A DNA stretch of 64,000 nucleotides from Actinomycetota bacterium (GTDB lineage: Bacteria; Actinomycetota; Acidimicrobiia; Acidimicrobiales; RAAP-2): contig JAJPJD010000018.1 of NCBI GenBank assembly GCA_021324355.1, positions 1 through 64,000 of the forward strand, read 5' to 3'. The notes under the pieces are model-generated. The model had not been told where the DNA came from. It did no database searches and was given only the letters and a program-made list of their open reading frames with translations. Position 1 is the stretch's first letter, and each line of letters starts with the position of its first letter. Of the stretch, positions 60,050-62,971 are shown in pieces. The translations under genes and the position numbers were made by a program.

Positions 60050-60715
60050 TGTCGTCGACGCAGCGCTGGTCGAGCGCAGCGCACCGCCCGAAATGGCGCC
60101 CGCTCAGGTCCTTTGCCCGCTCGGCTTTGAGGTTGGGGACCGTCGTCTTTCGCCAGCGCTTCTTGCTCCGGCCCTTGAGACCGGCCCGGCGCATCAGCCA
60201 CCGCACCCGGTGCCGCCCGCAGTCGAGCCCCTGGCACCGCAGCTCGGCGTGGACCCGGGGGCTGCCACGGGTGCACTTGGAGGCAGTGTGCACGACGTCG
60301 GTCCTCTCGGTCTGCGAGCTTCCTCTGCGAGGGGGTCTGCTGGTGCTGGCACTTGGCGGCACGGGAGACCTCGAGCAGCGCACCACGCGGTGACCTGCAG
60401 GTCCCTCCGGCTCGATGAAGGGTCCATCACCGGGTCTTCTTCGCGAAGAAAGCCGTTGCTCGCTTGCGCAGGTCGACATCGGTCTTTTGGCGCCTGTGCT
60501 CCCGCCGCAGCCAGGAAAGCGCTCGCGCTCCTGCTGGTCAGGCCCGGCCGATACCGGTGTCGATCTCGGCCTGAGCCGCTCACCTGCGTACTGCCGACTC
60601 CGTCAGGTCGAATTCCCGGGCCACCCCTGCGATCGACCGGTCACCAGCCCGGCACCCCTCCACGATCTCCGACTTGAAGTCCGGGGTGTACGACCAACGG
60701 TCACTGCGCCCCGGC
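60050..60715 (-). pseudogene. Degenerate IS3-family transposase remnant (orfA + 5' part of orfB)
   Basis: Minus-strand fragments in different frames: YTPDFKSEIVEGCRAGDRSIAGVAREFDLTESAVRR* (orfA HTH, stop at Trp position), RREHRRQKTDVDLRKRATAFFAKKTR (orfA C-terminus), LLEVSRAAKCQHQQTP, RGSPRVHAELRCQGLDCGRHRVRWLMRRAGLKGRSKKRWRKTTVPN (orfB). Confidence 0.85.
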
Positions 60716-60834: not shown

Positions 60835-62118
60835 ATGAGGAGAGGTTGCTGGTCTTGGGAAGGCTGCGCTCGGGCGGCCTGCGCCGGCCTGGGGTTCGCA
60901 GCTCTCGCCCTCGGGACACTCGCCATCGGTTTCTCCCAGGCAACGGCCGCGGTCGTCGTGGGTCCGGACCATGGGACAAGCGCCGGGACCGGGAACTTCG
61001 CCACCGGCAGCTGGCCTGGTTGGGCCTCCCTCAACTGGTCAGGGTACGCGGTGTCGACGGGCGCGCCGTACCATTCGGTGAGCGCGACCTGGATCGTCCC
61101 TGCGGTGAGCGGTCCGAACGGGTCCTACTCGGCAGCGTGGGTGGGCATCGACGGCTTCACCAACGGCTCGCTCATCCAGACCGGCACCGAGCAGGACTTC
61201 CTCAACGGTGCTGCCCAGTATTCGGCCTGGTGGTCGACCTCGTCACAGAACTTCGTCGAGCAGACGATCACCAATGGCTGCTCCGGTGCCGTCGCCGGGC
61301 CAGCTCGGTCCCGTCCCCAGGGCCCCGGCGGGCTCCTCGCTGCGCCCACTGGCCGCGCCGGCGGTCCCCGAGCCTCTGCTCACGGCGGGTCGGGGCCGCC
61401 TGGGGCCACCACCGGCTCGGCGACCGGCGTGTCGTCGACCAGTGCCACCCTCAATGGGACCGTGAACCCCAATGGCCTTGCCACCTCCTACTACTTCGAG
61501 TTCGGCACGACCACGTCGTTCGGGTCGACGACGGCCGTCTCGAGCGCCGGATCCGGCAAGCGGGCTGTCACGGTGAGCGCGTCGCTGAGCGGTCTGTCGG
61601 CCGGCACGACGTACTACTTCGAGCTGGTTGCGACGAACGCCGACGGCACCACGGATGGGGGGCTTGGTTCGTTCACCACCAGCTCGGGCTCCGGCTCGGG
61701 CGGCAGCAGCTGCGGGCTGGTTGAGCCAGGGGACCCGATGTCGGCCACCATCGCGCAGGCTTCCGGGTCGACCTGGGACATCACGATCGGCGACGGCTCA
61801 AGCAGCCACGGGTGGAGTTTCACCACGGCCGTGACCTACAGCGGCCCCGGGGCGTCGGTGGAGTGGATCCTCGAAGCCCCCACGGTGTGCCGAGGCTCGC
61901 ACTGCACGGTCGCCACACTGGCCGACTACGGCTCGGTGGTCTTCGACCAGGCGACGGCGAACGCAGCCGGGCCAGGCCTTGTCATCGGTGATGCCGGCGA
62001 GATGGTGAACGTCTCGGACACGGCAGTGCTCTCGATCCCCTCGGGGCCTGATGCCAGCGCTGACGGCTTCACCGTCGCCTACGGCTCGACCCAGCCAAGC
62101 CCTCCACCGGGGTCCTAG
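60835..62118 (+). CDS. Secreted G1-family (eqolisin/glutamic endopeptidase-like) protein with internal FN3-like domain
   Basis: Signal peptide; NWSGYAVS...WIVPAVSG...AAWVGIDGFTNGSLIQTGTEQDF; FN3-like ATLNGTVNPNGLATSYYFEFGTTTSFGSTT...GTTYYFELVATNADGTTDGG; CGLVEPGDPMSATI...WDITIGD...VEWILEAPT...LADYGSVVF. Confidence 0.75.
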   Translation: MRRGCWSWEGCARAACAGLGFAALALGTLAIGFSQATAAVVVGPDHGTSAGTGNFATGSWPGWASLNWSGYAVSTGAPYHSVSATWIVPAVSGPNGSYSAAWVGIDGFTNGSLIQTGTEQDFLNGAAQYSAWWSTSSQNFVEQTITNGCSGAVAGPARSRPQGPGGLLAAPTGRAGGPRASAHGGSGPPGATTGSATGVSSTSATLNGTVNPNGLATSYYFEFGTTTSFGSTTAVSSAGSGKRAVTVSASLSGLSAGTTYYFELVATNADGTTDGGLGSFTTSSGSGSGGSSCGLVEPGDPMSATIAQASGSTWDITIGDGSSSHGWSFTTAVTYSGPGASVEWILEAPTVCRGSHCTVATLADYGSVVFDQATANAAGPGLVIGDAGEMVNVSDTAVLSIPSGPDASADGFTVAYGSTQPSPPPGS

Positions 62119-62161: not shown

Positions 62162-62971
62162 TCAACCCCCTGCGACCGGGAGCGGGTTGCCGGTCTCGAG
62201 CAGCGACTTGAGGGCGGAGAGGATCCATGGCCACCCCTGACTGAGGCTCTCCAAGGTCGGGCTACCGGGCTCGAAGCCATCATGGATGACGGTCAGTCGC
62301 ACCACCTCACCGACCGGCTCGAGCTCGAAGGTGACCCTGGAGCGGGGCTCGGCCGACACCGCTGCGAAGTACTCGTCGTCGAACCCGGCGGCCTGGGCAA
62401 ACTCCGCGGTGATGGTCTGCCAGGTGTACGAAAGCCGGCGGTTGGGCTCAGCCTCCAGGACCACTTGTTCGGGGTCCTCGACGGTCACTCCGCCGTACTC
62501 CCAGGTCATGGGGGCGCCCGGTTCCCAGCTGGTCACGTGGGCGGCGCCCCAGTAGCGACGGGTGAAGGCCGGATCGGTGAGGGCCTGCCACAACCGTTCG
62601 GGGGTGGTGCGGATGTACGTGGTGTAGACGAACTGCGGTTTGTCCATGGGACTGTCCTCCAGGGCGTGCTTGAGCTCGGACAGGACGGCAGTCCGGGCTC
62701 GGTCGTAGCGGCTCATCCAGCGTTCGGCGATGTCGTTGAGTGGGACCGGGTTGAGATAGTGGAGCCGAACCCGGCCCCGGCGGACGCTCGTCACCAGGCC
62801 GGCCGCCTCGAGCACCGCCAGGTGCTTGGTCACCGACTGGCGGGCCATGGCCAGGCCCGCGCACAGCTCCCTGAGCGTCTGGCCGTTGCGGTCCCGTAGC
62901 CGGTCGAGCAACATCCGGCGGGACGGGTCGGCGAGCGCCTTGAACACCGTGTCCATCGCCTCCCCGCCCAT
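62162..62971 (-). CDS. ArsR-type HTH fused to SRPBCC/AHSA1-like domain
   Basis: MDTVFKALADPSRRMLLDRLRDRNGQTLRELCAGLAMARQSVTKHLAVLEAAGLV then VYTTYIRTTPERLWQALTDPAFTRRYWGAAHVTSWEPGAPMTWEY. Confidence 0.88.
   Translation of the reverse strand: MGGEAMDTVFKALADPSRRMLLDRLRDRNGQTLRELCAGLAMARQSVTKHLAVLEAAGLVTSVRRGRVRLHYLNPVPLNDIAERWMSRYDRARTAVLSELKHALEDSPMDKPQFVYTTYIRTTPERLWQALTDPAFTRRYWGAAHVTSWEPGAPMTWEYGGVTVEDPEQVVLEAEPNRRLSYTWQTITAEFAQAAGFDDEYFAAVSAEPRSRVTFELEPVGEVVRLTVIHDGFEPGSPTLESLSQGWPWILSALKSLLETGNPLPVAGG

Follow-up and report, generated by a model that had tools for sequence, protein, structure and literature searches.

The window, a stretch of 64,000 nucleotides, carries at 60835-62118 on the + strand a single stop-free open reading frame encoding a 427 aa protein, labelled P0001. 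The host assembly, a fragmented draft, totals 2.45 Mb over 64 contigs and has A4 peptidase matches in two proteins, P0001 and a fusion protein encoded on contig C3; the latter locus, L001 (C3, 18514-19155), is uninterrupted and lies C-terminally in its protein, the N-terminal part of which resembles cell-wall-binding repeats by eye. Directly upstream of the peptidase gene, at 60050-60700 on the - strand, is a decayed and frameshifted remnant of an IS3-type transposase (RCQGLDCGRHRVRWLMRRAGLKGRSKKRWRKTTVP), recognized from its sequence; downstream, at 62162-62971 on the - strand, an ArsR-type helix-turn-helix is fused to an AHSA1 domain.

The peptidase domain of P0001 is interrupted by 143 residues (150-292). 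The features of the gene are listed below, with equivalent residues given for SGP (scytalidoglutamic peptidase, an eqolisin of MEROPS G1; PDB 2ifw/1s2b); rows are those of an alignment of 39 homologues, and L062, L064 and L102 are homologous loci discussed further on.

60835..61014, + strand: putative signal peptide and short pro-region (residues 1-60), with an Arg-rich start and the hydrophobic core GLGFAALALGTLAIGFSQATAA, assigned by eye
61027..61278, + strand: N-terminal half of the G1/A4 domain (residues 65-148), aligned to PF01828 positions 2-83
61177..61179, + strand: catalytic Gln115, SGP Q53 by mapping, invariant (39/39 rows)
61240..61278, + strand: equivalent of the 70's loop (residues 136-148, SGP Y71-G80 by mapping), the loop being defined as in PMC6154417
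61279..61281, + strand: Cys149, bracketing the insert upstream; Cys in P0001, L062 and L064, the remaining 36 rows having no Cys in this column
61282..61398, + strand: Gly/Pro/Arg/Ala linker (residues 150-188), low-confidence or disordered in both models and not conserved in sequence with L062
61399..61683, + strand: FN3 domain (residues 189-283), from a sub-cut-off PF00041 match, an AlphaFold beta-sandwich and mostly FN3 Foldseek matches
61684..61710, + strand: Gly/Ser tail linker (residues 284-292), from the sequence
61711..61713, + strand: Cys293, bracketing the insert downstream; Cys in P0001, L062 and L064, and also in L102
61714..62109, + strand: C-terminal half of the G1/A4 domain (residues 294-425), PF01828 positions 91-186
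61873..61875, + strand: catalytic Glu347, SGP E136 by mapping, invariant (39/39 rows)
61888..61905, + strand: Cys352 and Cys357, a probable beta-loop disulfide (SGP C141-C148), C352 by mapping to C141 and C357 by its position in the loop

In a profile search the Pfam family Peptidase_A4 (PF01828) matches each half of P0001 separately; the score of 76.3 bits against a curated cut-off of 22.3 places it in the G1 (eqolisin) family, and the C-terminal half alone lies above the curated cut-off with an E-value of 3.2e-8. When the insert is removed in silico the two halves become one match (E 7.7e-25) spanning profile positions 2-186. The insert alone reaches 20.5 bits against PF00041 (E 5.6e-4), below the cut-off of 25; it is therefore called FN3-like by its fold and not as a curated PF00041 member.

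Host fold and FN3 were modeled from separate alignments, as mixed alignments of FN3 fragments and peptidases misplaced the 70's loop. An AlphaFold2 model of residues 59-427 built on 39 aligned sequences has both halves mostly at pLDDT >90; its best Foldseek match in the PDB is SGP (2ifw) with an E-value of 4.7e-9 and a TM-score of 0.78 normalized to SGP length, and since this match covers 360 alignment columns it runs through both halves and across the insert. The halves of P0001 are thus predicted to assemble as one eqolisin domain with the double beta-sheet fold. The linker and FN3 are of low confidence in this same-chain model (FN3 pLDDT ~48-64), where only two aligned rows are available. 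Modeled with 25 aligned FN3 sequences, the insert forms a beta-sandwich with pLDDT ~95-98 over the FN3 domain; a search with this model gives 40 matches in the PDB at E<=0.001; most are FN3 domains, and the top ones are the sensor domain of the anti-sigma factor RsgI4.

When the SGP sequence is aligned with the 39 homologues, Q115, E347 and W102 map to SGP Q53, E136 and W39, all invariant in the 39 rows; D106 corresponds to SGP D43 and is kept in 38 of them. Cys352 aligns with SGP C141; SGP C148 is left unpaired by the automatic alignment, and Cys357 is assigned to it from its position along the loop. The insertion point lies between the equivalents of SGP G80 and I81, where the 70's loop (Y71-G80) ends. 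In SGP this loop moves inward upon inhibitor binding and probably has a role in substrate binding (PMC6154417). In the clade of P0001 the loop is changed (WSTSSQNFVEQ versus WEILPAxET), and substrate specificity or activity may differ as a result. The earlier note had read the locus as a G1 peptidase split by an FN3 module between the catalytic Gln and Glu, and the separate and merged profile matches, the mapped dyad and insertion point, the modeled FN3 fold, the predicted assembly of the halves and, as described below, the uninterrupted relatives and a second inserted orthologue all agree with that reading; the linker, put there at ~50 aa, is shortened to ~39 aa.

A scan of public genome contigs returned 80 A4 loci, in 74 of which the distance between the AWW and EW motifs could be measured; it is 57-74 residues in 73 loci, which lack the insert, and 201 in L062 alone. 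L062 (JAJYWQ010000063.1, from the MAG FK3.bin129) carries a 137-residue Cys-linker-FN3-Cys insert, in frame and at a site identical to that of P0001; identity between the two proteins is 62% across the aligned match, 66% in the peptidase columns and 59% in FN3. The neighbors of L062, judged from sequence to be penicillin-binding-protein-like and chloride-channel-like genes, differ from those of P0001. A search for relatives around the L062 genome (G631) gave loci with loop sequences matching Chloroflexota/Dormibacterota MAG records. Among 198 relatives of the window genome the pairs of half-domain matches, as listed, look uninterrupted. Only two inserted members are known, P0001 and L062. On the Chloroflexota/Dormibacterota loop matches, the inserted gene may have been shared across phyla by transfer; searches for carriers returned no viral relative and no plasmid match.

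L062 also bears on whether the architecture is an artefact. An assembly chimera, a frameshift or a pseudogene would be in keeping with a draft of 64 contigs and with the flat codon-position bias of the linker; however, an independent orthologue holds the same in-frame insert at the same residue between other flanking genes, and the P0001 frame is open along its whole length with the catalytic residues intact, which makes such an origin extremely improbable. The same orthologue speaks against a mis-assembly or frameshift at 61265-61440, which the earlier note had named among the findings that would overturn its reading. On composition, compensating frameshifts confined to the linker are conceivable; these would leave the architecture unchanged.

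In a peptidase tree built without the insert columns P0001 and L062 group together (100/96), are joined by L064 (99/93) and then by L067 and L004 (100/98). L064 (DBS1-3.bin51) reads TSGC-TPSSSS-CGVV at the insert site, having both bracketing cysteines with six residues between them (C-x6-C), and L067 and L004 have neither bracketing cysteine nor insert; L102, a more distant A4 peptidase from Chloroflexi CF_134, has a Cys-bracketed loop of its own, AC-SVSVTTN-C, at this site. The mini-loop of L064 argues that the cysteines predate FN3, and the simplest order suggested by these sequences is from no loop to a stapled Cys mini-loop and then to FN3 loaded into the loop; gain of the whole insert and its later loss in L064 is a conceivable alternative. 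The FN3 tree, a short one of 97 columns, does not unite the FN3s of P0001 and L062, and their union is not rejected (p-AU 0.40); a single insertion event is favored because the two proteins are sisters in the peptidase tree and have the same insertion site. A recent FN3 copy from the same genome was also considered and set aside, as the closest other FN3 of that genome is only 50% identical at the protein level. The neck of the insert is most likely closed by a disulfide between C149 and C293. P0001 is Cys-poor, so a chance pairing of the two is formally possible, although P0001, L062 and L064 all have Cys at both positions.

P0001 is probably a secreted, acid-active glutamic endopeptidase in which the two halves form one eqolisin domain, FN3 is looped out behind the 70's loop as an accessory module, and a C149-C293 bond staples the insert; this reading is held with reasonable confidence. 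The halves would fold into an ordinary eqolisin domain with the flexible linker looping FN3 out, and the insert, its neck closed by the disulfide, would appear to the host fold as no more than a short stapled loop; such a neck would keep the fold closed even after nicking of the linker. FN3 would then act as an accessory module in cis, tethering the enzyme to a polymer, a surface or a substrate beside the cleft, or alternatively could damp the movement of the 70's loop.

The insertion site also allows FN3 to be imagined as a gate, placed over or beside the cleft, which would restrict access or inhibit the enzyme until autolysis of the linker, the disulfide then holding the pieces together. The loop closing over the substrate (PMC6154417) has the insert directly on its C-terminal side, the insert has a flexible linker of ~39 aa at one end only, and it is bracketed by cysteines, all of which would suit such a device; however, the orientation of FN3 relative to the cleft is not fixed by the full-length model (FN3 pLDDT ~48-64), the long linker and Gly/Ser tail would let FN3 swing away, and the linkers of P0001 and L062 have no obvious cleavage motif in common, so that gating is considered unlikely. 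Slightly less likely again is that FN3 is a neutral passenger, which landed in a tolerant disulfide loop and was kept without a role: FN3 modules of similar type are numerous in relatives, and extra length is tolerated at this site among them, but two orthologues whose FN3s are only 59% identical have both kept an open frame, an intact FN3 core and both cysteines.

A comparable arrangement occurs outside the peptidases. The linker-plus-FN3 query also matches HlyD/RND periplasmic adaptors in the relatives (family assigned by NCBIfam TIGR01730), in which, for example in L015, L006 and L010, the coiled-coil hairpin carries FN3 close to its tip in the form GCP..linker..FN3..SSC, the hairpin position being judged from heptad-like flanks. 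In adaptors of the same order that lack FN3, the hairpin-tip site is often occupied by a short loop between two cysteines (C-x6 to x34-C); among the adaptor rows 12 have an FN3 loop, 11 a short Cys loop and seven neither (L216, with its cysteines N-terminal, is counted as neither). Adaptors with FN3 in a Cys loop include L205-L209, L039, L040, L043, L044 and L047-L049. In the adaptor tree those with FN3 group as a single clade (83/91); in the FN3 tree their FN3s likewise group together (91/88), leaving out both peptidase FN3s, with a common clade not rejected (p-AU 0.41). Because the adaptor FN3s form a clade of their own, FN3 loading of a Cys loop probably arose separately in peptidase and adaptors; transfer of a single Cys-FN3 cassette from adaptor to peptidase was set aside on the grounds of this clade and of the L064 mini-loop. 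It can be proposed, tentatively and at less than even odds, that disulfide-stapled hairpin loops in these bacteria repeatedly serve as landing sites for FN3, that short pre-existing Cys-x(n)-Cys loops were loaded with linker and FN3 in the G1 peptidase and in the HlyD/RND adaptors, and that the FN3 of the peptidase now modulates the capture of substrate at the 70's loop.

The earlier note had suspected that the architecture is undescribed; it does not mention the cysteines on either side of the insert, the sister protein with a Cys mini-loop, the placement directly behind the 70's loop or the HlyD/RND parallel. In line with that suspicion, a search of open-licence PMC papers that combined glutamic peptidase and fibronectin brought up nothing of relevance, and no paper describing a whole-domain insertion into a glutamic peptidase was found there, absence from this set being weak evidence; the terms insertion and fibronectin gave no match inside PMC3009609 and PMC6154417. 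The main eqolisin survey dropped sequences with unmatched inserts of >15 aa (PMC6154417), and inserted forms such as P0001 would therefore have been missed. G1 is a rare class of acid protease, and here a whole FN3 domain lies inside the catalytic fold, with a second genome showing the same arrangement. L067/L004, L064 and L062/P0001 form a natural series within one well-supported clade, running from no loop through a stapled mini-loop to a stapled loop that holds FN3; it looks like a natural experiment in which a module has been added to an enzyme and the enzyme has not been broken. The series offers a direct way to test how a domain can be accommodated between the catalytic residues of an enzyme and what the enzyme gains from it. 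The adaptor parallel suggests a general rule, that a loop can be loaded safely when its neck is closed by a disulfide.

Compared with known systems, P0001 is most readily set beside SGP, with which it shares the fold, the Gln/Glu dyad, the W39 and D43 equivalents and counterparts of the beta-loop cysteines C141 and probably C148; unlike P0001, SGP has no insert behind the 70's loop, the sequence and length of that loop also differ, and SGP C127 (the partner of C47) has no cysteine equivalent in P0001. The characterized bacterial G1 peptidase pepG1 from Alicyclobacillus sp. DSM 15716 likewise has the dyad conserved; its mature enzyme, 28 kDa in size, starts shortly before the NWxGY motif (PMC3009609). 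Within the clade of P0001, the Acidimicrobiia/Actinomycetes homologues L004/L073 and L067 are uninterrupted, lack the cysteines and have a 70's loop reading WWTTSAQGFxEQ, and L064, sister to P0001 and L062, shares the bracketing cysteines with a mini-loop in place of the 143-aa insert. The HlyD/RND adaptors resemble P0001 in having Cys, a low-complexity linker, FN3 and Cys placed in succession in a loop; however, the host protein is unrelated and their FN3s belong to a separate clade.
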